Of a stretch of 64,000 bases of DNA, positions 40,736 through 58,704 are shown in pieces. The stretch is from assembly GCF_003002055.1 (NCBI RefSeq), contig NZ_PVZF01000007.1:186001-250000 (forward strand), in the 5' to 3' direction. Below the pieces are notes generated by a model. That model was not told the origin of the DNA. It did not search any database and saw only the letters and a program-made list of their open reading frames with translations. The first letter of the stretch is position 1. Every line of letters begins with the position of its first letter. A program made the position numbers and the translations under genes. The stretch comes from Kineococcus rhizosphaerae (GTDB taxonomy: Bacteria; Actinomycetota; Actinomycetes; Actinomycetales; Kineococcaceae).

Positions 40736-40752
40736 CATCGGTCGAACCACTG
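40736..40752 (-). promoter_or_regulatory. Regional 17-bp motif, copy before the MBL hydrolase gene
   Basis: Read toward the gene this is CAGTGGTTCGACCGATG, ending 34 bases before the start codon. It matches the copy at 56121-56137 at 16 of 17 positions and lies at nearly the same distance from the start. Confidence 0.6.
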
Positions 40753-40775
40753 CTCGCGCCGGGCGGCGCGGGCGG

Positions 40776-43514
40776 TCACACCCGTCCGGCGAGCGCGTCG
40801 GCCAGGTGCGAGCGCCGGTTCACCTGCAGCTTGGCGAAGGCGTGGTGCAGGTGCGAGCCGACCGTCCGGTGCGAGAGGTACACCTGGTCCGCGATCTCCC
40901 GGTTGGACAGCCCCTGCGCGGCCAGCACGGCCACCATGAGCTCCTGCGCGGTCAGCGACCGGACCGCGAGGTCGCGCGCGGGTCCCGCGTCCGCCCCGGC
41001 GTCGTCCGCGCCGCCCGCGGCCCGCAGCTCCACGCGCGCCCGCTCGGCCAGGGGCAGCACGAGGTGCTCCTCGAAGAACCGCAGGGCCTCGACGAGCTGC
41101 TCCCGCGCCTCGGTGATCCTGCGCTGGCGGCGCAACCACTCGCCGTGGTGCAGCCGGGTGCGGGCCACGTCGAGGCCCGTCCCCCCGCGGCGGCCGAGCT
41201 CCAGCGCGGCCCGGAAGTGCTGCTCGGCCGTGCCGTCGTCGGCCAGCAGCGCGCGCGAACGCTCCAGCAGCAGTTCCAGGTGGACCGACCCGCTGACCCG
41301 CACGACGTCGGACGCCGTGCGCAGCCAGTCGTGGACGGCGTCGGGCCGGCCGGTGCGGACGGCCGCCTCGGCCAGGTCCCCACCGGCCCACAGGGCGACG
41401 GAGGCGTTGGCGGCCGTCCCGGTCAGCTCCCGCAGCGCGTCCGCGTACCGCCCGTCGGTCAGGGCCAGCACCCCGGCCGCCCACGCGGCGCTCGCCGCCA
41501 CCCGCGCGAACGGCGCGGCCGCCGGGAGGGCCTCGGCCTGCCGCAGGGCCTGCAGGGCGCGGTCGCGTTCACCGCCCCAGGCGCGCGCCCGGGCCACGAC
41601 GGCGGCGGCCATGGCGGCCACGACGGGCAGGTCCAGCTCGCGGCTCAGGCGCAGGGCCTGCTCGGCGTCGGCCAGCCCACCCGCCAGGTCACCCGCCGTG
41701 ACGCGGGGGGTGGCCCGCCCGCACAGGGCGATCGTCTCGTCGCCGGCGCGCCCGGAGGCGTGGAAGGCGTCGACGGCGCTGCTCCAGCACGTCTCGGCGA
41801 CCACCAGGTCGCCGGCGTCCTCGGCCGAGAACGCCAGGCAGTTCAGCAGGACGCCGTCCACGTCCTGCACCTCGGTGCGGAACCGCTCGAACGTCGCGAC
41901 GTCCAGGGGGGCGCGGGGGTCGACCAGGGCCAGCCCGATCCGGCGCAGGCTGCTGCCGGGGTCCTCACCGGCCAGGGCCGAGCGCACCGCGGCGCGGACG
42001 TCGTCGGGTTCCTGCAGGACGGAGCACTTCGTCGCGGCCCAGACGAGGACCTCGACCCGGTCGGCGCTGCCGGGCAGGCCCCGGGCCAGGTCGACGAGGT
42101 CGAGGGTGCTGCGCCCCCGGTGGTCGGCGGTCATGCTGAGCAACCAGTCCGTGCGGGCGGCACGGCGCACGACCTCGAACTGCGTCGGGGCGACGACCGC
42201 GCGCACCTGCGTCAGGAGCGCCGCCGCGTCCACCGAGGCGCCCGCCTGCCGCGCCGCCTCGGCGGCGGAGGACAGCAGCCGCGCCCGGTCCTGCGGCTGC
42301 GGGGTCAGCGCGCTCGCGCGTCGCCACAGCGTCGACGCCTCCGCCGTCGCCCCCTGCCGGAAGACGGCCTCGGCGACGTCGGCGAGCTCGGCGGCGACCC
42401 CCGCGTCCCAGCCCGTCACGGCGGCGGCGCGGTGCTGGACGCGCCGCGCCGGGGAGGGCACGGCCCGCGCCAGGGCCGTGTGGGCCTGCGAACGCTCGGC
42501 GGACCCCGCGCCGTCGTAGAGGGCCGAGCCGACGAGGGGGTGGCGGAAGAGGAACCGGTCGCCCTCGGAGCCCAGCAGCCCCACCCGCTCGGCCGGTGCC
42601 AGGTCCTGCTCCCCCAGCCCCAGCAGGTCCAGGGCGCCGAGGACCTCCGGGCGGGAGGCGTCCTGGCCCGCGGCGACGACGAGCAGGGCCCGGCGGGTGC
42701 CGGCGGGGAGCCCGTGGACCTCGCCGAGGAACGCCTGCTCCAGGCGCCGGCTCATGGAGACGCGGTGCCCGCCGTCGGCCCCGCCGGTGCGGGTCCACTG
42801 CGTGGCCAGCTCGGTGAGGGCCAGCGGGTTGCCGAGGGACTCCTCCAGCACCTGGGCCCGGACCCGGGCCGGCAGGTCGGGGCGGCGGGCGGACAGCAGC
42901 GCCTTGGCCTCGCGCGGGGGCAGCGGCCCCAGGCGCACGACGTGCGGGAAGTCGCGGGCCGGGGACGGGCGGGACGGGTCGGGGCGGGTGGTGGCCAGCA
43001 CCAGGGCCCGGGCGCCGTCCAGCCGCCGCGGCAACGAGACGAGGGTCTCGGTGCTGGAGGGGTCCACCCAGTGCAGGTCCTCCAGGACGAGCAGCAGCGG
43101 CTCGGCCTGCGCCGCCTCCTCCAGCAGCCCCGTGGTGGCCAGGCTCAGGACCAGCCGGTCCACCGCGGCGCCGTCCGCGAGCCCGAAGACCACCTCCAGG
43201 GCTTCGCGCTGGCGCGCGGGCAGGGCGTCGACGCGGTCCAGGACGGGGTGGAGCAGTTCGTGCAGCCCTGCGAAACCGGTCCCCTCGCCGCCGCGGAACC
43301 CCCGGCACCGCAGCACCCGGAACCCCGTCGCGGCGGCCTCGGCGGCGAGCGCGGAGACCAGCGCGGTCTTGCCGAGGCCGGCCTCGCCCACCACGAGCGC
43401 ACCCGAACCCCGGCCGGCGGCGGCCTGCCCGAGCAGGCCGCGCAGCAGCGTGAGCTCGTCGAGGCGTCCCACGAGGACGGCGGCCGGGTCGTGCGGGCCG
43501 GTGGACGTCGTCAT
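40776..43514 (-). CDS. Large ATP-binding LuxR-family regulator (LAL), first copy
   Basis: A 912-residue regulator. An N-terminal AAA-type ATPase (Walker A GEAGLGKT at residues 43-50, Walker B LLLVLEDLHWVD near 145) is followed by a long helical repeat region (about 350-840) and a C-terminal LuxR helix-turn-helix (about 845-905, LTAQELMVAVLAAQGLSNRE then SHRTVGSHL). LAL proteins are ATP-controlled transcription activators. It is divergent from an alpha/beta hydrolase gene, and the 205-base spacer holds one copy of the 17-bp regional motif. Two further LAL proteins with very similar HTH domains lie within 11 kb. Confidence 0.93.
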   Translation of the reverse strand: MTTSTGPHDPAAVLVGRLDELTLLRGLLGQAAAGRGSGALVVGEAGLGKTALVSALAAEAAATGFRVLRCRGFRGGEGTGFAGLHELLHPVLDRVDALPARQREALEVVFGLADGAAVDRLVLSLATTGLLEEAAQAEPLLLVLEDLHWVDPSSTETLVSLPRRLDGARALVLATTRPDPSRPSPARDFPHVVRLGPLPPREAKALLSARRPDLPARVRAQVLEESLGNPLALTELATQWTRTGGADGGHRVSMSRRLEQAFLGEVHGLPAGTRRALLVVAAGQDASRPEVLGALDLLGLGEQDLAPAERVGLLGSEGDRFLFRHPLVGSALYDGAGSAERSQAHTALARAVPSPARRVQHRAAAVTGWDAGVAAELADVAEAVFRQGATAEASTLWRRASALTPQPQDRARLLSSAAEAARQAGASVDAAALLTQVRAVVAPTQFEVVRRAARTDWLLSMTADHRGRSTLDLVDLARGLPGSADRVEVLVWAATKCSVLQEPDDVRAAVRSALAGEDPGSSLRRIGLALVDPRAPLDVATFERFRTEVQDVDGVLLNCLAFSAEDAGDLVVAETCWSSAVDAFHASGRAGDETIALCGRATPRVTAGDLAGGLADAEQALRLSRELDLPVVAAMAAAVVARARAWGGERDRALQALRQAEALPAAAPFARVAASAAWAAGVLALTDGRYADALRELTGTAANASVALWAGGDLAEAAVRTGRPDAVHDWLRTASDVVRVSGSVHLELLLERSRALLADDGTAEQHFRAALELGRRGGTGLDVARTRLHHGEWLRRQRRITEAREQLVEALRFFEEHLVLPLAERARVELRAAGGADDAGADAGPARDLAVRSLTAQELMVAVLAAQGLSNREIADQVYLSHRTVGSHLHHAFAKLQVNRRSHLADALAGRV

Positions 43515-43626
43515 CTGCGGTGCGTCGTGCTCCCGTTCAGCGGTCCCGGCGTCCTCGTCGGGACGACTCCTCGGTACCGCCGCCCGTCAGCCTAGCGAGC
43601 GGCGGACGGCCCGGGACCGCGAACGT

Positions 43627-43643
43627 GAGTCATCCTCCTGATG
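43627..43643 (+). promoter_or_regulatory. Regional 17-bp motif, copy before the alpha/beta hydrolase gene
   Basis: GAGTCATCCTCCTGATG lies 76 bases before the hydrolase start and 113 bases from the divergent LAL start. The CATC-5-GATG core is a dyad, so it could serve both genes. Confidence 0.55.
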
Positions 43644-43719
43644 CCCGGGACCGGCGGCGGCCGGGAAGGTCGGTGGCACGCCCGGGTGACCGGGACCCAC
43701 CGCTTCCGAGGAGCCCCCC

Positions 43720-44466
43720 GTGCCCGAGCCGACCCCCGAGCAGACCCCCACCGTCGTGCTGGTGCACGGCGCCTTCGCCGAGTCCGCGAGCTGGACGGGT
43801 GTCGTCGAGCGGCTGCGCGCCCGCGACGTCGACGTGCTGGCCGTGGCGAACCCGCTGCGCGACCTGGAGGGCGACGCGCGCTACGTCCGCGACGTCGTCG
43901 CCTCCGTCGCCGGGCCGGTCCTGCTGGTCGGCCACTCCTACGGCGGGGCGGTGATCACCGCGGCGGCCGCCGACCTGCCGTCCGTCGTGGGTCTGGTCCA
44001 CGTCGCCGGGTTCGCCCCGCAGACCGGGGAGTCGGCGCTGGACCTGTCGAACCGGTTCCCCGGCAGCACCCTCGCCGACACGCTGCAGACCTACCCGGTC
44101 TCCTCGGGCGGGGTGGAGTTCCGCATCGCGCCGGACGCCTTCCACCACCAGTTCGCCGCCGACGTCCCGCTCCCGGAGGCGGCGGTGATGGCCCTCACCC
44201 AGCGCCCCGTCACCGAGGCCGCCCTCGCTGCGCCGCTGACGACGCAGGCCGCGTGGACCCGGCTGCCGTCGTGGTTCGTCTTCGGCGACCAGGACCTCAA
44301 CATCCCCGTGGCCGCGCACCGGTTCATGGCCCAGCGCGCCGGGGCGGCCGGCACCCGCGAGGTCCCCGGCGCCTCGCACGCGATCGCCGTCTCCCGGCCC
44401 GACGTCGTGGCCGAGGTGATCGTCGAGGCGCTCACCACGGCCGGCCGGGCCACCGCCTCCGTCTGA
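43720..44466 (+). CDS. Alpha/beta hydrolase
   Basis: A 248-residue hydrolase with oxyanion-side VHGAFAESASW, nucleophile elbow GHSYGG (Ser73), an acidic residue in FVFGDQDLNIP near 190 and the histidine in GASHAIAVSRP near 220. It has no signal peptide, so it is cytosolic. Similar short enzymes include esterases and salicylate-ester-hydrolase-like proteins. It is preceded by the regional motif and followed, after a 42-base C-rich spacer, by a second hydrolase gene on the same strand. Confidence 0.9.
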   Translation: MPEPTPEQTPTVVLVHGAFAESASWTGVVERLRARDVDVLAVANPLRDLEGDARYVRDVVASVAGPVLLVGHSYGGAVITAAAADLPSVVGLVHVAGFAPQTGESALDLSNRFPGSTLADTLQTYPVSSGGVEFRIAPDAFHHQFAADVPLPEAAVMALTQRPVTEAALAAPLTTQAAWTRLPSWFVFGDQDLNIPVAAHRFMAQRAGAAGTREVPGASHAIAVSRPDVVAEVIVEALTTAGRATASV

Positions 44467-44508
44467 CCCCCACCACCCCACCCACCACCCCACCCGAGGA
44501 GTCCCGTC

Positions 44509-45471
44509 GTGACCGAGATCGAGATCGTGCTCGAACCCGCCGCCCAGGCGTTCGTGGAGGCGAACTCCACCCCGCCGTTCCTGTACCAGCTCACCCCCGC
44601 CCAGGGCCGCGAGATCGCCACCACCCTGCAGTCCGGGTACCCGCACCTGCTGCCCGTCGACCAGGAGGACCTGGAGGTCCCCGGCGGCCCCACCGGCTCC
44701 GTCCCGGTCCGCATCACCCGCCCGCAGGGCGCGACCGGCCCGCTGCCCGTCGTGATCTACACCCACGGCCTGGGCTGGGTGTACGGCGGCAAGGACACCC
44801 ACGACCGCCTCGTGCGCGAGATCGCCGTCGGGACCGGGGCGGCCGTCGTCTTCACCGACTACGCCCTGTCCCCGGAGGCGAAGTACCCCGTCGCGATCGA
44901 GCAGGTGTTCACCGTCGCGCAGTGGGTCGCGAAGGAGGGCGCCGAGCACGGCCTGGACCCCACCCGCATCGCCGCCGCCGGGGACTCCGTGGGCGGGAAC
45001 ATGACCGCGGTCCTGGCCCTGATGGCCAAGGAGCGCGGCGGGGTCCCCCTGCTGGCGCAGGTGATGTTCTACCCCGTCACCGACGCCGACTTCGACACCC
45101 CCAGCTCCCACGAGTTCGCCACCGGGTACTTCCTGCACCGCGAGGGCATGCAGTGGTTCTGGGACCAGTACACGACCGACCCCGCCCAGCGCGCCGAGCC
45201 GTACGCCTCGCCGTTGAAGGCCAGCATCGAGCAGCTCACCGGCCTGCCGCCGGCCCTGGTGATCGTCGGGCAGGCCGACGTCCTGCGCGACGAGGGCGAG
45301 GCGTACGCGAACAGGCTGCGCCGCGCCGGGGTCCCGGTGACGGCCACCCGGTACCAGGGGATCGTCCACGACTTCGTCGGGCTGAACCCGCTGCGCGCCA
45401 CGAACGCCGCCGAGGCCGCGATCGACCAGGCCGTCGACTTCCTCCGGCGGGCGCTGTCCACCGACTCCTGA
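44509..45471 (+). CDS. Alpha/beta hydrolase, esterase of the hormone-sensitive-lipase type
   Basis: A 320-residue esterase. The oxyanion segment is THGLGWVYGGK, where HGGG is usual in the family, so one glycine position is changed. The nucleophile elbow is GDSVGG (Ser160), the acid lies in VIVGQADVLRDEG and the histidine in YQGIVHDFVGLN. It is probably a cytosolic carboxylesterase for short acyl chains. It is expressed with the upstream hydrolase; a strong hairpin follows before the TDT transporter gene. Confidence 0.9.
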   Translation: MTEIEIVLEPAAQAFVEANSTPPFLYQLTPAQGREIATTLQSGYPHLLPVDQEDLEVPGGPTGSVPVRITRPQGATGPLPVVIYTHGLGWVYGGKDTHDRLVREIAVGTGAAVVFTDYALSPEAKYPVAIEQVFTVAQWVAKEGAEHGLDPTRIAAAGDSVGGNMTAVLALMAKERGGVPLLAQVMFYPVTDADFDTPSSHEFATGYFLHREGMQWFWDQYTTDPAQRAEPYASPLKASIEQLTGLPPALVIVGQADVLRDEGEAYANRLRRAGVPVTATRYQGIVHDFVGLNPLRATNAAEAAIDQAVDFLRRALSTDS

Positions 45472-45480
45472 CCTCGACCC

Positions 45481-45513
45481 GCCCCGCGGGCCCCGCACCG
45501 GGGCCCGCGGGGC
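45481..45513 (+). terminator. Hairpin between esterase and transporter genes
   Basis: A 15-bp perfect G+C stem with a three-base loop (CAC), nine bases after the esterase stop. There is no T-tract. It may stop or slow transcription into the transporter gene, which starts 26 bases later. Confidence 0.65.
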
Positions 45514-45538
45514 CCTCCTCCCCGAAGGGACCGGCACC

Positions 45539-46555
45539 GTGACCACGACCGACCCGCTCACCCCCGCACCCCCACCCGCGCCGGTGGTGGCGCCGGTGGC
45601 CCCCACCCGGGTCCGTCTGACCCCCAACCTGTTCGGCACGTCCTTCGGGCTCGCCGGGCTGGCGGCCACCTGGACCGCCGCGGCGGCCGCCGTCGGCCTG
45701 CCGACCTGGCCGGCGACGGCGCTGTGGGCGGCCGCCGCGCTCGTGCACGTCGTCGTCGCCGTCGCCTACCTGCGCGACGCGCCGCGCCACCGGCGGCTGG
45801 CCTCCGACGTGGCCGACCCCACCCTGGGCCCGTTCACCGCGCTGGGGTTCGTACCGGTGATGCTGCTCGGGGCGTGGCTGCACGGCTACCAGGGCACCGC
45901 CGGGCAGGTCGTCGTGGTCGTGGGCGTCCTCGGCACCGTGCTGCTCGGCGCGCACCTGACCGGTGGGTGGATCACCTCCCCCGGGCCGTTGCAGCGCTGG
46001 CACCCCGGGTACTTCCTGCCCAGCGTCGCCGGGGGCCTGGTCGCCGCGCAGTCGCTGGCGAAGGTGGGCTGGCACGACGCCGGCCTCGTCGCGTTCGGCT
46101 ACGGCGCGGTGTCCTGGCTGGTGCTGGGCTCGATCCTGCTCGTGCGCCTCATGACCCAGCCCGCGCTGCCGGCCCCGCTGCTGCCGACGATGGCCATCGA
46201 GGTCGCCCCGGCCGTGGTGGCCAGCAACGCGTGGTTCACGCTGAACGGCGGCCGCTCCGACACCGTCGTCGTCCTCCTGGCCGGGTACGCGGTGTTCATG
46301 GCCCTGGTGCAGGTGAGGCTGGTCCCGCTGTACCTGCGGTCCGCGTTCGGCCCGGGGTTCTGGTCCTTCAGCTTCTCCTACGCCGCGCTCGCCACCACCG
46401 CCGTCACCTGGCTGCACCTGACGGCGCCGGCCGGGTGGAGGGCCTGGGTCGTCGTGGTGCTGGCCGTCCTGACCCTCGGCTACGCGGCGCTGGTCGCGCG
46501 CACCGTCCTCGCCCTGGCCCGCGGCACGTACTTCGCGCGGGTACCGGCCGTCTGA
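45539..46555 (+). CDS. TDT/SLAC1-TehA family transporter
   Basis: A 338-residue protein with ten predicted membrane helices after a proline-rich N-terminus. The pattern of short helices with FGTSFGLAGLAATW at the start, HPGYFLPSVAGGLVAAQS in the middle and FSFSYAALATTAVTWLH near the end is that of the tellurite-resistance/dicarboxylate transporter family, which carries small anions across the inner membrane. The cargo here is unknown; the nearby hydrolases suggest an organic acid product. The gene follows the esterase gene. Confidence 0.82.
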   Translation: MTTTDPLTPAPPPAPVVAPVAPTRVRLTPNLFGTSFGLAGLAATWTAAAAAVGLPTWPATALWAAAALVHVVVAVAYLRDAPRHRRLASDVADPTLGPFTALGFVPVMLLGAWLHGYQGTAGQVVVVVGVLGTVLLGAHLTGGWITSPGPLQRWHPGYFLPSVAGGLVAAQSLAKVGWHDAGLVAFGYGAVSWLVLGSILLVRLMTQPALPAPLLPTMAIEVAPAVVASNAWFTLNGGRSDTVVVLLAGYAVFMALVQVRLVPLYLRSAFGPGFWSFSFSYAALATTAVTWLHLTAPAGWRAWVVVVLAVLTLGYAALVARTVLALARGTYFARVPAV

Positions 46556-46562
46556 GCCCGCG

Positions 46563-49313
46563 TCAGCCGGCGGCCGGGCCGAGGAGGTCGAGGTCGGCCA
46601 GCGCGGTCCGCAGCCGGGCGCGGCTGGTGATCCCCACCTTGGGGAACAGCTTGTACAGGTGCGCCCCCACCGTGCGGTGGGACAGGTACAGCCGGTCGGC
46701 GATCTCCTTGTTGCTCATCCCCTGCGCGGCGAGCCGGGCGATCTGCAGCTCCTGGGCGGTCAGCGGGGCGCCGGAGCCCGGGCGCACGTCGCCCGCCCGC
46801 ACGGCGCCCCCGGCCGCGCGCAGCTCCTGGGCCGCCCGCTCGGCCAGCGCCCGGGCCCCGCGACGCTCGAACCCGCCCACCGCGGCGGCCAGCACGGGAC
46901 GGGCGTCGACGGGACGCTGCTCGCGGCGCAGCCACTGCCCGTACGCCAGCTGCGTCCGGGCCAGCTCCACGGGGGCGTCGGCCCGCTCACCGGCCGCCAG
47001 GGCGGCCAGGAAGTGCTCCTCGGCGCCGGAGCCCGCCAGGAGGGCGCGCGCCCGGTGGACCAGGAGCCGCAGGTGGTCGGAGCCGAACAGCTCGGCCTCG
47101 GGTGCGACCCGTTCCAGGGCGGGCAGGGCCTGCGTCGGGGTCCCCGCGCCCGCGGCGGCCTCCGCCAGGTCCGCCACGGACCACGCCGCGAACAGCGGGT
47201 AGGTGCCGACGTCGAGGAGGTGGGCCAGCGCGTCCCCGGAGCGGCCCTCCTGCAGGGCGACGAGGCCGGCCGCCCACGAGGCGCCCGCGGGCACCTGCGG
47301 CACGGCGTCGGCCGGGCCGGCCGCCCGGACCCGGGCCAGCGCCTCGGCCGCCTCCGCCGTCCGCCCCGTCAGCGCCAGGGCGCGGGCCGCGGTCGCGCTC
47401 GCCGACGCCGCGACCATCGCCATCCCCACGTCCACCCCCGTGCGGTGGGCGTTCTCCGCGTCCTGCAACGCCTCCGTCAGCTGCCCGCGGGCCACCCGCA
47501 CGGACGCCAGGCCGTTGAGGGCCTGCCCCTCGTCGCCCGGGGACCCGGCGCGGTGGAACGCCTCGACGGCCCGGCTCCACGCGGCCTGCGCGATCGGCAG
47601 GTCCTGCAACCGCTCCGCGACCTGCCCGAGGGCCAGCAGCATGTACGGCTCGTCGGCGAACGTGGCGAGCAGGTCCGGCAACCGGTCCCGCACGTCCGGG
47701 TGGGCGCGCGGGTCGACGACCGCGAGCGCCAGCTGCTGCAGCGGGTGCGGGCCGGCGTCGACCGCGGCGAGCCGGTCGTGGACGGCGCGGCGCCACGTCG
47801 CGTCGGTGGCCTGGTTGGCGGCGTGGAAGGCGGCGTTGGCCAGGACGACGACGCGCTGCCCGGGGTCGCCGGCGGCGGCGAGCTCGTCGTCCAGCTCCAG
47901 GGCCTCGTGGACGAAGCGCCCGGTGTCGTGGGGCGCCTCACCGGCAGCGATGCCGAGCATCGAGCGCAGGTAGGCCACCTGGAAGCGCTCCTGCGGTGCG
48001 CTGACGAGCGCGGCCGCGGTGTCCAGGGTGGCGGCGGCCTCGGCGGTCGCCCCGGCCTGGCGCAGGTACTGCGCGGCGCTGAGCAGCCGGGTGGCCCGCC
48101 GGGAGGGGTCGGGCGTGAGTTCGGCGGCCCGCCGCAGGGCCGCGGCCGCCTCGCTGCGCGCACCCCGCTCGGCGGCCCGGGTCCCGGCCGCCTCGAGCTC
48201 GGCGGCGACCGCCTCGTCGCGATCGGGCACCGCGGCGGCGCGGTGCCAGGCGGCCCGCCCCGGGTCGTGGCTGGCCGCGGCCAGGGCCTGGTGCGCCCGG
48301 AACCGCTCCGCGGAGGAGGCCGCGCCGTGGACGGCCGAGCGCACCAGCGGGTGGCGCAGCCGCGCGCGTCCGCCGGTGGTGTCGACCAGCCCCTCGCGTT
48401 CGAGGAGGTCCAGGTCCTGCGGGGCCAGGCCCAGCGCGGCGGCGGCGTCGAGCAGCTCGGCGACCAGGAGGTCCTCGCCCGTGGCGGCCAGCAGGAGCAT
48501 CGTCCGGCTGGGGACCGGCAGGGGCGCGACGGCGTCGAGGAAGGCCCGTTCCAGGCGCCGGGTCGTGGGCAGGGGGCCGCTGGTGAGGGCCGTCCCGCCG
48601 TCGAGCGCGGCGGCGAACTCGCGCAGCGCCAGCGGGTTGCCGTGCGCCTCGTCCAGGACCCGTCGCCGGCCCGCGGTGCCGAGGTCGGTCCCCCGGGGGT
48701 CCAGGGAGTCCAGCAGGCGTCGCGCGTCGTCGTCGTCGAGCGGCCCCAGGGACAGCACCTCGGCGACCTCCTCCAGGGCCGCCGTCGACGGCTGCGCGGT
48801 GGGCGCGGCGGGGTCGCGGCGGACCGTGGCCACCAGCAGCACGGGCGCGGCGCCCAGGCGGCGGGCGACGAAGGCGACGGCCTCCGCGGTGGAGGCGTCC
48901 AGCCAGTGCGCGTCCTCGACGTGCAGCAGGACGGGCCGCGTCGCGGCGGCCTCCTCCAGCAGGCCCAGGACGGCGAGGCCGATGAGCAGCCGGTCCGGCG
49001 AGGGGCCGGCCTGCAGGCCGAGGGCGGTCAGCAGCGCGGAGCGCTGGCGCGGGGGCAGGGCGTCGACCTGGTCCAGGGCGGGGTGCAGCAGCTCGTGCAG
49101 GCCGGCGAAGCCGGTGGCGGCCTCGCCCTCGAACCCCTGGCAGCGCAGCACGAGGAACCCGGCGTCCTGCGCGGTGCGCGCGACGGCCGTCACGAGGGTG
49201 GTCTTGCCGATGCCGGCCTCCCCCTCGACCAGCACGGCGCCGCCTCCCCCGCCGGAGCGCAGCGCGGAGAGGAGCTCGTCGAAGCGGGCCAGTTCCCGCT
49301 CGCGGCCGATCAC
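46563..49313 (-). CDS. Large ATP-binding LuxR-family regulator (LAL), second copy
   Basis: A 916-residue LAL protein. Walker A GEAGIGKT lies at residues 31-38, Walker B VLLHVEDAHWLD near 135, a helical repeat region spans about 340-830, and the LuxR HTH is at about 855-912 (LTAQELQIARLAAQGMSNKE then SHRTVGAHLYKLF). It is closely related to the third LAL protein, especially in the HTH (Q-M-S-N-K-E-I-A-D and SHRTV), and less so to the first. It converges on the transporter gene and follows the LAL-SpoIIE gene on the same strand. GTG start directly at the ATPase domain. Confidence 0.92.
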   Translation of the reverse strand: MIGRERELARFDELLSALRSGGGGGAVLVEGEAGIGKTTLVTAVARTAQDAGFLVLRCQGFEGEAATGFAGLHELLHPALDQVDALPPRQRSALLTALGLQAGPSPDRLLIGLAVLGLLEEAAATRPVLLHVEDAHWLDASTAEAVAFVARRLGAAPVLLVATVRRDPAAPTAQPSTAALEEVAEVLSLGPLDDDDARRLLDSLDPRGTDLGTAGRRRVLDEAHGNPLALREFAAALDGGTALTSGPLPTTRRLERAFLDAVAPLPVPSRTMLLLAATGEDLLVAELLDAAAALGLAPQDLDLLEREGLVDTTGGRARLRHPLVRSAVHGAASSAERFRAHQALAAASHDPGRAAWHRAAAVPDRDEAVAAELEAAGTRAAERGARSEAAAALRRAAELTPDPSRRATRLLSAAQYLRQAGATAEAAATLDTAAALVSAPQERFQVAYLRSMLGIAAGEAPHDTGRFVHEALELDDELAAAGDPGQRVVVLANAAFHAANQATDATWRRAVHDRLAAVDAGPHPLQQLALAVVDPRAHPDVRDRLPDLLATFADEPYMLLALGQVAERLQDLPIAQAAWSRAVEAFHRAGSPGDEGQALNGLASVRVARGQLTEALQDAENAHRTGVDVGMAMVAASASATAARALALTGRTAEAAEALARVRAAGPADAVPQVPAGASWAAGLVALQEGRSGDALAHLLDVGTYPLFAAWSVADLAEAAAGAGTPTQALPALERVAPEAELFGSDHLRLLVHRARALLAGSGAEEHFLAALAAGERADAPVELARTQLAYGQWLRREQRPVDARPVLAAAVGGFERRGARALAERAAQELRAAGGAVRAGDVRPGSGAPLTAQELQIARLAAQGMSNKEIADRLYLSHRTVGAHLYKLFPKVGITSRARLRTALADLDLLGPAAG

Positions 49314-52400: not shown

Positions 52401-53807
52401 GCGGGCGACCTCGCCGGCGGCGGCGAGCCGGCGGACGCGGGCGGGCACGTCGGGGGACAGCGCCGCGGCGCGTTCCACGGCCGCGAACGCCTCCTCGGGC
52501 GCGCCGCGGCGCACCGCGCGGTGCGCGCTCGCCTCCAGGGCGGCCGCGACGTCCTCGTCGGCGACGTGGGTGCCGGCCGCCCGGTGCCACACGGCCCGGT
52601 CGGGGTCGGGGGCCACCGCGGCCAGGGCCCGGTGGGCGGCCGCGCGCTCGGGCAGGCCGGCGCCGCCGTAGACGGCCGAGCGCACCAGGGGGTGGCGGAA
52701 GCGGACCTGGCCGTGGGTGACGGCGACGAGATCGGCGTGCTCGGCGGGGTCGAGGTCGGCGACGGCGCGGCCCGGGGCGCCGGAGGCGGCGACCAGCCGG
52801 GACAGCGGGATCTCCCCGCCCTCGGCGGCGGCGAGCAGCAGGAGCCGGCGGGTGGCCGGGGGCAGCCGGTGGACGTCGGCGAGGAAGGCCCGCTCCAGCC
52901 GCTGGGTCGTGGGCAGGCCCTGCCCGGGCGGGAGCACGTGGCCGGCGGCGGCCAGGGCGCTGCCCAGTTCCCGCAGGGCCAGCGGGTTCCCCCGGGCCTC
53001 CTCCAGCACCCGGGCGCGGGCGGCGGGCCGCAGCCCCGTGACGCGGGAGTCCAGCAGCGCGGCCGCCGCGGCGGGGGCCAGCGGCCGCAGCTCCAAGTGC
53101 TCCCAGGGCGCGGCGCGCCAGCGGGAGGAGGTGGTGCCGCTGGTGCGCACGGTGGCGACCAGCAGCACCGGGGAGGTCGTGAGCCGCCGGGCGGTGAAGG
53201 ACACGACGTCGGCGCTGGCCGCGTCGAGCCACTGCAGGTCCTCGACGACGACGAGCAGGGGCCCCGCCGCGGCGGCCTCCTCGAGGAGCCCCAGCGCGGC
53301 CAGACCGGTGAGCAGCCGGTCGGGGGCGGGACCGTCCTCGCGGCCGAAGGCGGTCAGCAGCGCCGAGCGCTGCCTCGGCGGCAGCGCGTCGACCTGCGGC
53401 AGCAGGGGGTGCAGGAGCTCGTGCAGCCCCGTGAAGCCGCCGGCGGTCTCGGCGTCCAGACCGGTGCAGCGCAGCACCCGGGTCCCGGGACCGGCGGCGC
53501 GCACCAGCGCCGAGACGAGGGTGGTCTTGCCGATGCCCGCCTCGCCCTCCACGACCACCGCCACGCCGTGCTCGCGGGAGGCCGCGAGCCGCCCGCGCAG
53601 GTGCGCCAGCTCGTCCTCGCGCCCGACGACCCCCGCGTCGAGGGGGGACGCGTCGACGGGGGACGCGGCCCCCTCCCCCGAGACCCGCGACGGGACCGGC
53701 GGCGGGGGGAGCACCACCGCGGGCGCAGCGGCGGACCGGGCACCTCGTCCCCGTCCGCCGGCACGTGCGGTGGTCTCGACCAGGGTCCGGTCGTCGGTGG
53801 TGGTCAC
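49401..53807 (-). CDS. LAL regulator fused to GAF-like and SpoIIE/PP2C phosphatase domains
   Basis: A 1468-residue protein joining two usually separate proteins. Part one is a full LAL regulator: Walker A GEAGIGKT near residue 88, a helical repeat region, and a LuxR HTH at about 918-975 (LTAQELQIARLAAGGLTNKE, SHRTVAAHLYKAF). After a Pro/Ala linker (about 978-1020) come a GAF-like domain (about 1030-1185) and a SpoIIE-type PP2C phosphatase (about 1190-1440) with EVGGDWYDAF, VGDVTGHG, SNAGHPPPL, VTDGVLE and EDDVTVLV, all metal-binding aspartates present. The reading frame is continuous through the junction, so it is not two genes. It suggests a regulator with its own phosphatase output. Confidence 0.93.
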   Translation of the reverse strand: MTTTDDRTLVETTARAGGRGRGARSAAAPAVVLPPPPVPSRVSGEGAASPVDASPLDAGVVGREDELAHLRGRLAASREHGVAVVVEGEAGIGKTTLVSALVRAAGPGTRVLRCTGLDAETAGGFTGLHELLHPLLPQVDALPPRQRSALLTAFGREDGPAPDRLLTGLAALGLLEEAAAAGPLLVVVEDLQWLDAASADVVSFTARRLTTSPVLLVATVRTSGTTSSRWRAAPWEHLELRPLAPAAAAALLDSRVTGLRPAARARVLEEARGNPLALRELGSALAAAGHVLPPGQGLPTTQRLERAFLADVHRLPPATRRLLLLAAAEGGEIPLSRLVAASGAPGRAVADLDPAEHADLVAVTHGQVRFRHPLVRSAVYGGAGLPERAAAHRALAAVAPDPDRAVWHRAAGTHVADEDVAAALEASAHRAVRRGAPEEAFAAVERAAALSPDVPARVRRLAAAGEVARRAGLAAEAARVVRAAVPLAEDPAVVCRLALTSSVLSVVHTGDGREPADLVRGLVEVCERLAGPDGDGAVEQRLCLLFRAAVQAAGFGADERVRTLVADALTALPVPEGHPLLDVALAALDPRRYAGRVCGRFPALAAHAAQRQPDGTAHVAHVAEAVHDLPGAREVWDVAVRAAHDAGAVSDEAHALAGRGSLRVVTGEVEGAVADLQLALRIALESEQLLMAGYVEALLARAHAWRGEHVQALAACARSAELTGPRPFAITAASRSWAAGLVALAEQRPADAWTQLQGVGVHPPTAALALGDLVEAAVRTGRAEALATARAAVDAAERDARAFPAASHLRALVHRARALLHTHDGDGEGARAAFEAAGRAGADGSCPLELARTRLLHGEWLRRQRRIVDARELLAAALTGFETAGARSLARRAGAELRAAGVVPAVAADADGQDPAALLTAQELQIARLAAGGLTNKEIADKVYLSHRTVAAHLYKAFPKLGITHRTQLRDAIAGPRAHPAGTDGPVPAAAPPDPAPGPAPVPVGTAGASPDVAPAPAAPAAPAAPAARFADVAVVAASADEVAAAAARQLIAEFDPTLVSVVLRGPRPGVLRHWSVRGGGLDVDAHGWRTASLPRESPSLAPGRGGRGDFHETLDTFETRCPLVQSVVRSAGLRALVDLPLAASGRVVGFLVLGWDTEQDLPPAVRGALEEFAATCARALERVLAATRGNSLLRSLQAVVPGRLVSTPHAQLAGRRLAAGLAGGPGPHAGEEVGGDWYDAFDGEDGSTVLIVGDVTGHGPAVAATAASLRAVLASHALERPSPAHALTRLDCAVERLALPAGATAVVLEAAPTPAGDYRLRWSNAGHPPPLVLLPDGAVVPLRSAPELPVGVDVDAVRRDHQREVPAGSTLVLVTDGVLETRTQDVVAGLGKLGADLARSRGLPPQVLVDRLLEGVATEVEDDVTVLVARLGPLAADPTDPTGPARPALPAQALPPVPAAPAPGALL
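50723..50758. repeat. Four perfect 9-bp repeats in the LAL-SpoIIE linker
   Basis: GGGCGGCCG occurs four times head to tail and encodes Pro-Ala-Ala units in the linker between the DNA-binding and GAF-like domains. A change in copy number would keep the frame and alter linker length. Confidence 0.85.
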
Positions 53808-53856
53808 GGGTCCTCCTCGGCTCGACCGCGATCGTGGTCCGGCCGCACCCCGCCGT

Positions 53857-53873
53857 CACCGGTCGGATGACTC
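53857..53873 (-). promoter_or_regulatory. Regional 17-bp motif, copy before the LAL-SpoIIE gene
   Basis: Read toward the gene it is GAGTCATCCGACCGGTG, 49 bases before the start codon. It is the most divergent copy at the last half (GGTG for GATG). Confidence 0.5.
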
Positions 53874-53911
53874 AACTTCGCGGGGCCGTCGCCCCGGGCG
53901 GGCCTCCCGGA

Positions 53912-55279
53912 TCACTCGGCCGCCAGCACCCGCGCCGGGTCGCGCCGCAGCGCCACCGCCGTCGGCAGCACCGTCGCGGCGAGCAGCAGGACGAGCGCCG
54001 CACCGGCCGTGACCAGCGTGGCGGGCAGCCCCGTCGCGGGCGGGCGCAGCGGGACGGCGGCCGAGACGGTCCACGCGGCGGCCGCCGCCGTGGTGAACAC
54101 CCCGACGAGACCCAGCACGGTGGCGGTGACGACGTGGATCAGCGCCTCCCAGGCCGCGGCGAGCAGCACCGCGGCGGGCGTGGCGCCGGCGGCCAGCAGC
54201 AGGGCCGCTTCGCGGTCGCGGGTGCGGCCGGCCACGAAGACCGTCGCCGCGGCGCCGACCGCGGCCAGCAGCAGCGGTCCGCCCAGCACCAGGACCACCG
54301 ATCGGGCCGACACGGCGGTGGCCGGCACGCCCAGGGACGACAGGGCGTCGCGCAGGGTGCCGCTGCCCGCGAACAGGCCGCCGGTCAGGGCCACGGCCAG
54401 CACCAGCGGCGCGCTCACCGCGGTGCTGCGCCCCGCGGCGTGGGCCACCGCGGCCCGGGCCAGGTGCCACGACGCGGAGGCGCGCGCGGGCACCAGCGAC
54501 GTCCAGGCCGCGAGCACGGGCACGGTGACGAGGGGGGACAGCAGGACGAGCACCCCGGCGGTCAGCGGCGACAGCAGCAGCAGCGCCGACTGCGCCGCGG
54601 CCAGCTCCTCGACGCTGCGGCGCCCGCCCAGGCTCGCGACGACCGAGACGACGACCAGCACCAGCACCGCGGCCGCCGCCCACCGCAGCGGGCCGACGCG
54701 CACCGGCACCGGGACGGGGGCGCGCAGCAGGTGCAGACCCTCGGCGCGCGACGCGACCCCGGCGCTGCGCCAGGCCCCGGCGACGACGACGAGGAGCACG
54801 CCGGCCACCACCCAGCCGCTGCCGCCGCCCTGCAGCCGCACCCCGTCCAGACCGCTCGTGCCCGCCAGCACCCACCGGCCCACGGCGGGCACCAGCGGAC
54901 GGACCCCCACCACCGCGACCCCGGCACCGGCCGCCCCCACGAGCAGCAGCTGGGCGAGCACGATGACGCGCACCGCCGCGGGCGGGACGCCGACGAGCTG
55001 CCAGGAGGCGTGGGAGCGCTGCTGCAGCTCCACCGTCAGCGCGGCCACGGACCCCACGACGGCGACCCCGGCGACGAGGGTGAAGGCGAGGACCGTCCCG
55101 CTCAGGGCGTACAGCCCCAGGCCCCGGGTGCCGCCGACCCGCCCGGCGGTGACGACGAGGGCGGCGGCCAGCGACCCCACGGCGGCGGCGGTGGCGGCCA
55201 CCACCGCGGTCCCCGTCCACGTGCGCGGGTCGGCGAGGACGTCGCCGACCACCAGCCGGGCGGTGGCCCGCGCCCTCAC
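53912..55279 (-). CDS. ABC exporter permease, FtsX/MacB-like
   Basis: A 455-residue membrane protein with about ten helices. A FtsX-like half at the C-terminus (about residues 330-450) has VFVAGRTRDREAALLLAAGATPAAVLLAAAWEAL and ends VALRRDPARVLAAE, the classical ending of these permeases; the N-terminal half (GTVLAFTLVAGVAVVGSVAALTVELQQRSHASWQLVGV) is a related unit. It overlaps the ATPase gene by four bases (GTGA). The pair is likely an exporter of peptides, lipids or antibiotics, or a mechanotransmission module. GTG start at 55279. Confidence 0.85.
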   Translation of the reverse strand: MRARATARLVVGDVLADPRTWTGTAVVAATAAAVGSLAAALVVTAGRVGGTRGLGLYALSGTVLAFTLVAGVAVVGSVAALTVELQQRSHASWQLVGVPPAAVRVIVLAQLLLVGAAGAGVAVVGVRPLVPAVGRWVLAGTSGLDGVRLQGGGSGWVVAGVLLVVVAGAWRSAGVASRAEGLHLLRAPVPVPVRVGPLRWAAAAVLVLVVVSVVASLGGRRSVEELAAAQSALLLLSPLTAGVLVLLSPLVTVPVLAAWTSLVPARASASWHLARAAVAHAAGRSTAVSAPLVLAVALTGGLFAGSGTLRDALSSLGVPATAVSARSVVLVLGGPLLLAAVGAAATVFVAGRTRDREAALLLAAGATPAAVLLAAAWEALIHVVTATVLGLVGVFTTAAAAAWTVSAAVPLRPPATGLPATLVTAGAALVLLLAATVLPTAVALRRDPARVLAAE

Positions 55280-56085
55280 CGGCCCACCGCGCCGGCCGCC
55301 GGGGCAGCGGCGGCGGTGACCGCCGCCAGGAGCTCGGCGGGCCCGGCCCCGCGCAGCTCGGCGTGCAGGAGCCCGTCGCGCAGGACCAGGACGCGGTCGG
55401 CGCGCGCCGCGGCCTGCAGGTCGTGGGTGACCAGGACGACGGCGCGGGACCCGGACGCGGCCGCCCGCAGCAGGTCCAGGACCTGGGCGCCGGCGGCGGT
55501 GTCGAGGGCGCCGGTGGGTTCGTCGGCGAACACGAGGTCGCGGTCCACGGCCAGCGCCCGCGCCACGGCCACCCGCTGCTGCTGCCCCCCGGACAGGGCC
55601 GACGGCTTGGCGCGGGCGCGGTCGGCCAGGCCGACGCGGGCCAGGGCGCGGTCGACGTTCTGCACGCGCACGGTCCGGCGCGCCAGGCGGGCCGGGAGCG
55701 CGACGTTGTCCCACGCGGTGAGGGAGGAGATGAGGTTGTAGGCCTGGAAGACGAACCCGACCCGTTCGCGCCGCAGCTTCGCCAGGGCGCCGCGGCTGAG
55801 CCCGCCCAGCTCCGTCCCGGCGATCTCGACGGTCCCGGACGACGGACGGTCCAGCCCCGAGAGGCAGTGCAGCAGCGTGGACTTGCCCGACCCGCTGGGA
55901 CCGACGACCGCCACCAGCTCCCCCGCCGCGACCTCCATGGAGATCCCGCGCAGGACCGGCACGGGGGTCCCGTCCGGCCCCGGGTGGGTCTTGACGAGGT
56001 CGCGGGCCCGCAGCAGGGGCGCGGGTGCGACGGCGGGCGGCGGGGTGGGACGGGGGACCGTCGGTTCGTCCGGGGAGGTGCTCAC
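55276..56085 (-). CDS. ABC exporter ATPase, LolD/MacB type
   Basis: A 269-residue ATPase. After a proline-rich leader it has Walker A GPSGSGKST near residue 67, the Q-loop VGFVFQAYNLISSLTAWDNV, signature SGGQQQRVAVARAL, Walker B LVFADEPTGALD and the H-loop VTHD. These are typical of the MacB/LolD/FtsE subfamily that partners FtsX-like permeases. The GTG at 56085 was chosen; the frame is open upstream but without ABC-like sequence. A copy of the 17-bp regional motif lies 35 bases before the start, as before the MBL hydrolase gene. Confidence 0.9.
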   Translation of the reverse strand: MSTSPDEPTVPRPTPPPAVAPAPLLRARDLVKTHPGPDGTPVPVLRGISMEVAAGELVAVVGPSGSGKSTLLHCLSGLDRPSSGTVEIAGTELGGLSRGALAKLRRERVGFVFQAYNLISSLTAWDNVALPARLARRTVRVQNVDRALARVGLADRARAKPSALSGGQQQRVAVARALAVDRDLVFADEPTGALDTAAGAQVLDLLRAAASGSRAVVLVTHDLQAAARADRVLVLRDGLLHAELRGAGPAELLAAVTAAAAPAAGAVGR

Positions 56086-56120
56086 GTCCTGCGACGTTAC
56101 GAACCGCCACCCGGGTCCGG

Positions 56121-56137
56121 CATCGGTCGAAGCACTG
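56121..56137 (-). promoter_or_regulatory. Regional 17-bp motif, copy before the ABC exporter genes
   Basis: Read toward the gene: CAGTGCTTCGACCGATG, 35 bases before the ATPase start codon. It differs from the MBL copy at a single base. Confidence 0.6.
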
Positions 56138-56273: not shown

Positions 56274-56290
56274 TGGTCATCGTGCTGATG
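56274..56290 (+). promoter_or_regulatory. Regional 17-bp motif, copy before the MFS gene
   Basis: TGGTCATCGTGCTGATG, 96 bases before the MFS start codon. The bases that follow (CCCGCGGACCG) also resemble those after the alpha/beta hydrolase copy (CCCGGGACCGG). Confidence 0.55.
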
Positions 56291-56386
56291 CCCGCGGACC
56301 GTCGCGGCTCCTAGCGTCCGGGAGGCGAGGCACCACCGGCCCGGCCGGTGGACGCCACCCCCCGCTCCGCACCGGAAGGACCCGCC

Positions 56387-57661
56387 GTGCCCGCACCCCC
56401 GGACCACCGCCCGCCCGCCCCGGCCGACACCGCGCACCGCGCCGCGACCGGCCCCGGGCCGGTCGAGCCGGGCGCGCCGCGCCGGGCCGGCACCCTCGCC
56501 CGCACCCTGCTGCCCGCCTCGATCACCGTCACCGTGCTGGCCTCCTCCAGCGCCCCGACCCCGCTGTACGCCACCTACGAGCGCGAGTGGGGTTTCGGCG
56601 CGCTCACGACGACCGTGGTCTTCGGCGTCTACGCCCTCGCCGTCCTGCTGGCCCTGCTGGTGCTGGGCCGGTTGTCCGACCACCTGGGCCGGCGGCCGGT
56701 GCTGCTGGTGGCGCTGGCCGTGCAGGTCGTGGCGGTGCTCGTGCTGGCCACGGCCCCGGAGGTCGCCGAGCTCCTGCTCGCCCGCGTGCTGCAGGGGCTC
56801 TCGACCGGCGCGGCGGTGGGCGCGGCGGGCGCGATGGCGCTGGACGTCGACCCGCGGCGCGGGGCGCTCGCGAACTCCGTGGCCCCACCGGTCGGCACGG
56901 CGACGGGGGCGGTGCTGTCGGCCGCCGTCGTGCAGTTCCTGCCGTGGCCGACCCACCTGGTGTACCTGCTGCTGCTGGCCCTGTACGTGCTGCAGGGGGT
57001 GGCGGTGGCGCTGGCCCCCGAGACCGTCCGGCGCGACGGGACCGCCTGGGCCCGGGCGCTGTCCTCGCTGGTGCCGCGCATCGGGCTGCCGCGCCGGTTG
57101 CGGGCCCCGTTCGCCGTCGCGGCGCCGGTGGTGTTCGCGGTGTGGGCGCTGGCTGGGTTGTACGGCTCGCTGGCCCCCTCGCTCGTGCGGACCGTCCTGG
57201 GCTGGGACTCGCCGTTCGCGGGGGCCTCGACGTTGTCCCTGCAGACCGCCGTCGCCGCGGTCACCGTGGCCGCGACGTACTCGACCGCCGCCCGGACCGG
57301 CGTCGTCGTCGCGGTCGTGGCGCTGGCGGCCGGGATGGCGCTGACCCTGCTGGCGCTGTCCGGCACGTCGGCGGCGGTCTTCTTCCTCGGCACGGCCGTC
57401 GCCGGGGTGGGTTTCGGCGCGGGTTTCCAGGGCGGGATCCGCCTGGTCGTGCCCCGGGCCGAACCGTCCGAGCGGGCCGGGGTGCTGTCCTCGGTGTACG
57501 TCGCGGCCTACCTCGGTCTGGGGCTGCCGGCGGTGCTCGCCGGGTTCCTGGTCGTCCACGGCCCGGGGTTGCTGACGACCGCGCGGGGGTACGCCGTGGC
57601 GGTCGTGGTGCTGGCCGCGGTGGCCGCCCTGGCGATGCTGCGCCGCCCGGCCCGCGGCTGA
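56387..57661 (+). CDS. MFS efflux transporter
   Basis: A 424-residue major facilitator with twelve predicted helices after a proline-rich N-terminus of about 35 residues. The loop 2-3 motif is GRLSDHLGRRPVLL (about residues 102-115), and helix 1 is followed by SSAPTPLYATYEREWGF, a pattern of drug- and metabolite-export subfamilies. GTG 56387 has a GGAAGGA site at the right spacing; an upstream in-frame ATG at 56348 does not. It is probably cotranscribed with the aldo/keto reductase gene 115 bases downstream, past a short tandem repeat. Confidence 0.9.
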   Translation: MPAPPDHRPPAPADTAHRAATGPGPVEPGAPRRAGTLARTLLPASITVTVLASSSAPTPLYATYEREWGFGALTTTVVFGVYALAVLLALLVLGRLSDHLGRRPVLLVALAVQVVAVLVLATAPEVAELLLARVLQGLSTGAAVGAAGAMALDVDPRRGALANSVAPPVGTATGAVLSAAVVQFLPWPTHLVYLLLLALYVLQGVAVALAPETVRRDGTAWARALSSLVPRIGLPRRLRAPFAVAAPVVFAVWALAGLYGSLAPSLVRTVLGWDSPFAGASTLSLQTAVAAVTVAATYSTAARTGVVVAVVALAAGMALTLLALSGTSAAVFFLGTAVAGVGFGAGFQGGIRLVVPRAEPSERAGVLSSVYVAAYLGLGLPAVLAGFLVVHGPGLLTTARGYAVAVVVLAAVAALAMLRRPARG

Positions 57662-57694
57662 AACCTCCCCGCCGCCCGGGGGCGGGACTCTCCC

Positions 57695-57760
57695 CGACCC
57701 GGAACCCCCGACCCGGAACCCTCGACCCGGAACCCTCGACCCGAAACTCCCCGACCCGAC
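57695..57760 (+). repeat. 14-bp tandem repeat between MFS and aldo/keto reductase genes
   Basis: Three nearly identical units of CGACCCGGAACCCT (57695, 57709, 57723), then two decaying copies at 57737 and 57752. It lies in the 5' region of the reductase gene, just before its GGAGA ribosome site. Confidence 0.85.
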
Positions 57761-57775
57761 GAACTGGAGATCCTC

Positions 57776-58654
57776 GTGACCACGACCGACGACCGGACCG
57801 GCACCGCACCCGCGGCCGCCTCCGGCACCTTCCTCATCGGCGGCGACCTGCCGGTGCACCGCCTCGGGTACGGCACGATGCAGCTGCCCGGCCCCGGGGT
57901 CTGGGGACCCTCCCGCGACCGCGACGGGGCCCTGCGGGTCCTGCGCCGCGCGGCGGACCTGGGGGTCGACCTCTTCGACACCGCCGACGCCTACGGCCCG
58001 GGGGTCGCGGAGGAACTCGTCCACGACGCACTGCACCCCTACGACGGGATCGTCGTGGCGACCAAGGTCGGTTTCACCCGCCCGGGTCCGGGACGCTGGG
58101 CCACCGACGGGCGCCCGTCGCACCTGCGGGCCGCGACCGAGGCCAGTCTGCGGCGGCTGGGGGTGGAACGCGTCGACCTGCTCCAGCTGCACCGGATCGA
58201 CCCGGCGGTGCCGCTGGCCGACCAGGTCGGGACGCTGGCGGACCTGCAGCGGGAGGGGAAGGTCCGCCACCTCGGGTTGAGCGAGGTCAGCGTCGCGGAA
58301 CTGGACGCCGCCTCCACGATCGCCCCGATCGCGACGGTGCAGAACCTGTACAACCTGGCCGACCGCTCCTCGCAGGACCTGCTGCGGGTCTGCGAGCAGC
58401 GCGGGACCGGGTTCATCCCGTGGTTCCCGCTGGCCACCGGGCAGCTCAGCGACCCGCGCGGCCCCCTGGCCCGCCTCGCGGGTTCCCTGGGCCTGGCCCC
58501 GTCGCAGGTGGCGCTGGCGTGGCTGCTGGGCAGTTCCCCCATCCTGCTGCCGATCCCGGGGACCTCCTCGGTCGCGCACCTGGAGGAGAACGTCGCCGCG
58601 GCCGGCACCGTGCTCGACCCGGCGGTCCTCGCCCGGCTCGACCGGCTCGCCTGA
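57776..58654 (+). CDS. Aldo/keto reductase
   Basis: A complete 292-residue enzyme of the barrel-fold family. The catalytic tetrad is visible as Asp and Tyr in VDLFDTADAYGPG (near residues 61-73), Lys in VVATKVGF (near 97) and His in LLQLHRID (near 140). The cofactor-binding end is IPGTSSVAHLEEN. It reduces aldehydes or ketones with NADPH. It sits between the MFS exporter and the isochorismatase operon and may modify the exported or imported compound. GTG start with a GGAGA site. Confidence 0.92.
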   Translation: MTTTDDRTGTAPAAASGTFLIGGDLPVHRLGYGTMQLPGPGVWGPSRDRDGALRVLRRAADLGVDLFDTADAYGPGVAEELVHDALHPYDGIVVATKVGFTRPGPGRWATDGRPSHLRAATEASLRRLGVERVDLLQLHRIDPAVPLADQVGTLADLQREGKVRHLGLSEVSVAELDAASTIAPIATVQNLYNLADRSSQDLLRVCEQRGTGFIPWFPLATGQLSDPRGPLARLAGSLGLAPSQVALAWLLGSSPILLPIPGTSSVAHLEENVAAAGTVLDPAVLARLDRLA

Positions 58655-58687
58655 ACCGCGCGCCCGGACCGCGCGCCCGGACGACGA

Positions 58688-58704
58688 CAGTCATCGTGCC
58701 GATG
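58688..58704 (+). promoter_or_regulatory. Regional 17-bp motif, copy before the isochorismatase-like operon
   Basis: CAGTCATCGTGCCGATG, 89 bases before the start codon of the cysteine hydrolase gene. It shares TCATCGTGC-GATG with the MFS copy. Confidence 0.6.

Follow-up and report, generated by a model that had tools for sequence, protein, structure and literature searches.

A cluster of three LAL regulators and its transcription units

We analysed six copies of a 17-nucleotide box in a 64,000-nucleotide stretch of the Kineococcus rhizosphaerae genome (contig NZ_PVZF01000007.1, positions 186,001 to 250,000 of the forward strand; hereafter the window, with positions counted from its first letter). 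The boxes lie in a cluster of hydrolase, exporter and regulator genes that includes three LAL regulators. LAL regulators are common in actinomycetes, often in gene clusters of unknown use, and their operators are poorly defined.

Each of the three regulators combines an N-terminal AAA_16 ATPase domain with a C-terminal GerE helix-turn-helix (HTH) domain. LAL1 (40776..43514, minus strand, 912 aa) and LAL2 (46563..49313, minus strand, 916 aa) are about 900 aa long, and LAL2 follows LAL3 on the same strand. LAL3 (49401..53807, minus strand, 1468 aa), at once a boxed gene and a candidate regulator like LAL1, is a complete LAL regulator fused to a C-terminal SpoIIE-type phosphatase domain located after the HTH. 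Its orthologue in a congener, G001 (L114:12762-17201, 1479 aa), has the same domains with a weak GAF match between them.

The remaining units were assigned from Pfam matches, and co-transcription was predicted from spacing. An MBL-fold hydrolase (Lactamase_B) is encoded at 39817..40701 on the minus strand. The plus-strand unit 43720..46555 holds an Abhydrolase_6 gene (43720-44466), an Abhydrolase_3 gene (44509-45471) and a SLAC1-type channel (45584-46555). An ABC exporter, comprising an ATPase (55276-56085) and an FtsX-like permease (53912-55279), forms the minus-strand unit 53912..56085, and an MFS exporter (56387-57661) followed by an aldo/keto reductase (57776-58654) forms the plus-strand unit 56387..58654. 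Lastly, the plus-strand unit 58794..62988 appears to be an operon of an isochorismatase-like gene (58794-59456), two abhydrolases (59486-60349 and 60502-61314) and two final genes without a Pfam match (61354-62073 and 62101-62988, plus strand). If these spacings mean operons, boxes precede every unit of the stretch except LAL1, toward which no box of the six-site kind reads. Among the 18 proteins scanned between 37.4 and 63.0 kb, DNA-binding domains were found only in the three LALs. Genes were called with a simple script based on GC by codon position; it performed poorly in an AT-richer region of a second congener, G005, where the gene after a box was taken to be the best same-strand open reading frame (ORF).

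Two sub-types of box

A sequence-only reading of this DNA had placed the six 17-mers at 40736 (minus), 43627 (plus), 53857 (minus), 56121 (minus), 56274 (plus) and 58688 (plus). Re-inspection of the sequence bears out all six, each oriented toward its downstream gene, along with the seven invariant columns that had been claimed across them. The copies before the MBL and ABC genes indeed differ at a single base and are found 34 and 35 bases upstream of the start codons at 40701 and 56085. The proposed consensus stands as far as these seven columns go, but a better frame lies 2 bp further downstream, beginning at the GT, and the single type it assumed resolves into two sub-types, GTCATC... and GT..TTCGACCGATG.

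The A-type variant TTCGACCGAT precedes the MBL gene (40734..40750, minus strand, GTGGTTCGACCGATGCG; conserved in G001) and the ABC exporter (56119..56135, minus strand, GTGCTTCGACCGATGCC), and the two boxes have GTNNTTCGACCGATGC in common. B-type boxes stand before the abhydrolase operon (43629..43645, plus strand, GTCATCCTCCTGATGCC), the MFS exporter (56276..56292, plus strand, GTCATCGTGCTGATGCC) and the isochorismatase-like unit (58690..58706, plus strand, GTCATCGTGCCGATGGT), and the box before LAL3-SpoIIE (53855..53871, minus strand, GTCATCCGACCGGTGAC) is a near-dyad. Four of the six are near-dyads of the form GTCATC-N5-G(A/G)TGAC and match GTCATC-N5-GATGAC with one or two mismatches; the two A-type boxes do not. 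A loose regular expression fitting both sub-types finds exactly six sites in the window.

A -10-like hexamer at fixed distance from every box

What the first reading missed is a -10-like hexamer at fixed distance from the box: NANNNT occurs 18-19 nt past the 17-mer (counted from GT) in all six window promoters. The hexamer is TAGCGT for the MBL gene (40709..40714, minus strand), TAACGT for the ABC unit (56094..56099, minus strand) and GAAGGT for the abhydrolase unit (43665..43670, plus strand; GAGGGT in G001). The others are TAGCGT for the MFS unit (56312..56317, plus strand), CACGAT for LAL3 (53831..53836, minus strand) and GACGAT for the isochorismatase unit (58726..58731, plus strand). Since the MBL and ABC start codons come only 7 and 8 nt beyond their hexamers, these two mRNAs are probably leaderless.

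With the -10 hexamer starting at -12, the block would cover about -48 to -32. A sigma-70 consensus scan of 40600-58900 returned no promoter-like site, which fits the lack of a -35 element in the boxed promoters. A block near -40, dyad-like in four of six copies, without a -35 consensus but with a -10 that keeps the housekeeping A and T, is arranged as in promoters that GerE-type regulators switch on by class II activation. Two features expected of such a site are present here: the box centre lies near -40, over the -35 region of the predicted starts, and GerE-domain regulators, the three LALs, are encoded nearby.

The same geometry bears on three other readings. The sequence-only reading had offered an alternative-sigma promoter, in which the box would serve an ECF-type factor as -35 element and the hexamer as -10, and the conservation of both blocks at fixed spacing in six of six promoters speaks for it. 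However, sigma promoters usually space their -35 and -10 elements 16-18 nt apart, whereas the hexamer here lies 20-21 nt from the last conserved TG and about 30 nt from the left half-site. The upstream block, 15-17 bp long and ending 18-19 nt before the hexamer, is unlike a -35 element, and the hexamers retain only the A and T typical of a housekeeping -10. Nor is there a sigma gene among the 18 proteins scanned, in which sub-threshold Sigma70_r4_2 matches over the GerE helix were the only trace. Because of the spacing and the block length the sigma reading fails, and we consider it extremely improbable.

MerR operators lie within the -35/-10 spacer. The spacer between box and hexamer differs among the six promoters (18-19 nt, with no common sequence), and for this reason a MerR-type reading fails as well.

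Finally, a position over the -35 region would also suit occlusion by a repressor, and a LAL of Streptomyces coelicolor, SCO6993, is described as a repressor in the cited part of its report (PMC9628970). Yet the boxed promoters have no -35 consensus to occlude, their weak -10 hexamers suggest that an activator is needed, and TpdR, also a LAL, acts as an activator according to the portion of the study drawn on here (PMC6099782). Repression through these boxes thus seems highly unlikely to us.

Box and hexamer together stand out from chance

The bare core GTNNTNNNNCNGATG, which fits five of the six window sites (the LAL3 site at 53857 has GGTG), is not specific, with 153 matches in the 5.61-Mb genome versus 93 for the reversed pattern. 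Requiring TANNNT 20-22 nt after the 15-mer leaves three matches in 5.61 Mb, all three in the cluster, and none for the reversed control. With the looser BANNNT there are 14 genome matches versus 5 for the reversed pattern; five are the cluster sites, which alone have the 21-nt gap, and the gap is 20 nt in each of the nine found outside the cluster. Neither of these core-plus-hexamer patterns can fit the LAL3 site, again through its GGTG.

The sequence-only reading had proposed scanning the genome with a weight matrix built from its six sites. We scanned one contig of 63 (C7; 320,793 bp, 641,466 positions) with leave-one-out matrices of box plus -10, each trained on five window sites. The left-out site ranked 4 (MFS), 5 (abhydrolase), 5 (ABC), 6 (isochorismatase), 6 (MBL) and 9 (LAL3) of 641,466, standing above every non-training position in five of six cases; the LAL3 site was outscored by three. 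When matrices lacked the -10, the left-out sites ranked 5-31, with 0, 0, 2, 4, 10 and 25 non-training positions above them, and only two of six topped all non-training positions. These worse ranks indicate that the -10 carries part of the signal: the sites do stand out on C7 when it is included and do so less clearly when it is not, and the motif as first proposed, without the -10, is not a diagnostic marker. A matrix trained on all six sites scored them 26.5-32.7, and the next C7 position reached 17.7.

That the six copies are a chance resemblance picked out by eye finds some support in the 153 genome matches of the bare core (control 93). Set against this are the leave-one-out scans, the -10 spacing, and the conservation in orthologues and the independent sister boxes described below, and we give chance a negligible probability.

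Two simpler detectors were discarded. The earlier consensus with up to two mismatches gave 95 window matches versus a shuffle mean of 42.9, mostly in coding DNA by position, and a strict pattern combining TCGNNC with TANNNT matched one of six window sites because the A-type sites carry CG elsewhere. A blastn search of a 205-bp intergenic stretch against plasmids gave no match.

Boxed promoters are kept in a congener

In G001, which carries the same cluster (LAL1 90% identical), box and -10 are kept in five of five orthologous promoters, with the hexamer again at 18-19 nt in all five. The ABC/FtsX pair with its own A-type box (53912-56085) is absent from the otherwise syntenic G001 cluster, an insertion or loss between two boxed promoters. 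Upstream of LAL3 and of MFS, where this indel interrupts the alignment of the window with G001, the conserved block starts just some 10 bases ahead of the box.

Sister boxes in further LAL clusters of the genus

A scan of 13 other LAL loci for the dyad uncovered a sister box, GTCAC(G/C)TGACGGATG, in front of comparable genes in LAL clusters elsewhere in the genus. Allowing up to one mismatch, GTCACCTGACRGATG has 26 matches in 11 genomes of the genus, versus 2 for the reversed control. LAL regions hold six of eight matches in G005 (within the 67-kb region C2:4645001-4712000) and three of four in G001 (in a second LAL cluster); in G010, four of eight lie on contigs with a LAL or LAL fragment and the rest on other contigs. 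The window's own genome has two matches, C2:197227 and C5:171739, away from the cluster. Across 198 genomes of the order, exact GTCACSTGACGGATG occurs 15 times in the three congeners that have LAL2-like clusters (3 in G001, 5 in G005 and 7 in G010), with five single matches in the other 195 genomes and none for the reversed control. Of the 12 genomes of the family, these three, along with the window genome, are the ones in which E of the top LAL match falls below 1e-140.

In all, 30 boxes were tallied: six in the window, five G001 orthologues and 19 sister boxes, leaving out a box-like site in the window genome's own second LAL region (L122:10812) that overlaps a called gene start. The A...T hexamer follows the 19 sister boxes at offset 18 in six and at offset 19 in ten, with one each at 20 and 21, and in no more than three at each of the remaining offsets between 0 and 59. 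Six of the 19 were first seen through a -10 filter; excluding those, ten of 13 have the -10 at 18 or 19.

Behind 16 sister boxes lie genes for F420-type oxidoreductases (4), SnoaL (3), Abhydrolase_3 (2), GFA (2), MerR (2, one of them followed by a LAL), MFS (1) and MBL (1) proteins and one without a match. Abhydrolase_3, MFS and MBL are the families common to window and sister-box genes. The proposed relatedness of the box classes rests on the common frame GTCA....C.GATG, the -10 spacing and the LAL neighbourhood, and not on the full sequence.

The A-type box and LAL1-type helices beyond the genus

Across 1.97 Mb of loci, GT..T(T/C)CGACCG(A/G)T is confined to the window cluster, the orthologous G001 cluster and Cellulosimicrobium, which has two copies. 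Both copies in Cellulosimicrobium sp. CUA-896 lie just upstream of a LAL1 relative (50% identical over LAL1 residues 3-911). Combined with the -10, the A-type pattern has six matches in 396 genomes of the order (two in the window and one each in G001, G010, G255 and G337; reversed control 0), and a slightly different A-type pattern without the -10 has nine in 394 genomes of the class (control 0). No LAL was found in the 13-18 kb around the class-scan boxes of G062, G611, G467, G580, G449 and G669, or in the stretch examined around the G337 match. Within the genus, the stretch examined around the G010 match (contig C166) likewise has no LAL, only a short match to the HTH alone at a distance of 6.6 kb.

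Among the eight copies next to a LAL, five (window MBL and ABC, G001 MBL, G255 and G623) have their start codon 31-33 nt past the 17-mer, so these A-type promoters look leaderless. Neither Cellulosimicrobium copy shows this spacing, the start codon lying 74 nt past the second of them, and in G715 the distance is at least 49 nt. In G623 the gene behind the box is again an Abhydrolase_3 gene. At the G255 locus (L185:6933-10858), a LAL gene is succeeded within about 50 bp by an A-type box overlapping its last bases and a leaderless-looking PPDK_N gene.

The recognition helices of LAL1 (SHRTVGSHLHHAFAKL) and of the LALs in Cellulosimicrobium (SHRTVGAHLHRAFAKL) and G623 (SHRTVGSHLHAAYPKL) have SHRTVG(S/A)HLH in common. 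LAL2 and LAL3 have HLYK.FPK, and most sister-cluster LALs have HLY. As LALs with near-identical helices adjoin the same sub-type in two other lineages, TTCGACCGAT is the best candidate for binding by LAL1, a pairing drawn from few loci.

We also entertain, tentatively and with somewhat more doubt than belief, a broader proposal: paralogous LALs of the genus may have split an ancestral operator into the classes GTCACSTGACGGATGC, GTCATCNNNCNGATG and GTNNTTCGACCGATGC, the third being an old LAL1-type box found across actinomycete families, mostly at leaderless promoters, with helix residue and box class changing together. In this proposal every box class is tied to a -10 18-19 nt downstream.

The boxes as probable operators of a LAL activator

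Taken together, these data suggest, with a probability of about 0.76, that a LuxR/GerE-type activator uses the six repeats as its operator, and the most likely candidates for this role are the cluster's three LALs, singly or in combination. The shared operator and single regulon that the sequence-only reading had envisaged are thus supported by the fixed -10 spacing, the conservation in a congener, the near-absence of box plus -10 from the rest of the genome, and the related boxes that other LAL clusters carry before genes of these kinds.

Several findings weigh against this. The A-type sites are poor dyads, and dyads as good as those of the other four boxes also turn up in the window's coding DNA as chance occurrences. 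G001 is close enough, at 90% LAL1 identity, that its conservation alone is weak evidence. The window's loose pattern has no match in 13 other LAL loci (L004 and L116-L127), three of the 19 sister boxes lack a -10 at 18 or 19, and a sister-box matrix recovers only 53855 among the window sites (ranks 8 and 12), for which reason we claim no single consensus. Among non-orthologous A-type matches, a LAL is adjacent in one of three with the -10 in the order and lies about 1 kb away in two of eight from the class scan (G623 and G715). The background is one LAL in 14 stretches of contig C7, which makes the association of A-type box and LAL outside the genus modest by itself. Moreover, the LALs beside the A-type box in G255 and G715 have other helices (HLD and HLY).

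Alternatively, the boxes may be the operator of a different transcription factor, encoded elsewhere or of MerR or XRE type, with the LALs merely neighbours. MerR genes follow boxes in two sister clusters (L119 and L125) and the gene behind the second Cellulosimicrobium box is of XRE/MLTR type, so that another regulator is possible there, and eight of 11 non-orthologous A-type matches have no adjacent LAL. However, no gene for such a factor is present among the 18 window proteins scanned, and LAL is the one regulator type seen at the window, G001, G005, G010, Cellulosimicrobium, G255, G623 and G715 loci, which are partly annotated. We therefore regard a non-LAL factor as unlikely, though the most serious of the alternatives.

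Under LAL activation, ligand and ATP would activate a LAL dimer, which would bind the box overlapping the -35 region and recruit RNA polymerase by contacting sigma region 4, the alpha C-terminal domain or both, as in class II activation. Six units would then be co-activated: the MBL hydrolase; the abhydrolases with SLAC1; LAL3-SpoIIE with LAL2; the ABC exporter; the MFS exporter with the aldo/keto reductase; and the isochorismatase/abhydrolase operon. LAL3-SpoIIE and LAL2 under their own box would constitute a feed-forward arm, and LAL1, without a box, may be the resident sensor. Because of the cluster's gene content, we would guess that it answers, and hydrolyses or exports, a small ester- or lactone-like compound.

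Regulation of this kind is already known; what appears to be new are the boxes themselves, the regulon and the possible pairing of helix with box type. In the open-licence literature, none of the matches listed is, by its title and abstract opening, about these boxes, and the words LuxR and SpoIIE are absent from the K. radiotolerans genome paper in the main text, the part drawn on here (PMC2587704). As far as the cited portions of the reports go, the nearest parallel is TpdR of Rhodococcus jostii TMP1, a LAL-type activator, as proposed here, with small-molecule degradation genes, whose promoter-proximal 15-nt repeat at -51 to -37 overlaps the -35 region in a comparable placement; it differs in having two direct repeats (TnnAAnnGCGGAnTC) of other sequence and one promoter region versus six here (PMC6099782). 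MalT of the Escherichia coli maltose regulon, the prototype of LAL architecture, also controls a multi-promoter regulon (PMC9628970, PMC6099782), but through short direct-repeat sites, whereas here there is one block per promoter, mostly an imperfect inverted repeat. PimM and PteF of Streptomyces act on several promoters of one cluster through LuxR-type DNA-binding domains, at a 16-nt dyad, CTVGGGAWWTCCCBAG (PMC6448028, PMC5930380), yet they are PAS-LuxR proteins rather than LALs and their operator is unrelated in sequence to the boxes here. SCO6993 is a LAL that binds palindromic promoter stretches but differs in acting negatively and, in the portion cited, in having no reported consensus; its authors state there that the consensus site of that LAL could not be predicted (PMC9628970).

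By comparison, one cluster here gives six matching sites of fixed promoter geometry, and its relatives add over two dozen. If our reading is right, scanning makes it possible to predict LAL regulons, probes for binding assays are available, and it becomes testable which helix residues read which bases. The cluster would then form a self-contained regulon whose members are hydrolases, two exporters and a LAL-SpoIIE fusion. Should helix residue and box class indeed change together, the DNA code of orphan LALs would become readable for the first time.

Further features of the sister loci

Two sister boxes without a -10 face away from genes (L162:1568-3307 and L120:1148-2869) whose products fuse a response-regulator receiver to a thioredoxin-reductase-like domain, and another sister box (L125:6330) sits at the end of a contig and has no ORF behind it. 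The G005 region C2:4645001-4712000 (L118-L121), whose DNA has a lower GC content of 0.69-0.72, contains five LAL genes along with nine sister boxes, none further than 120 kb from the same end of the contig.

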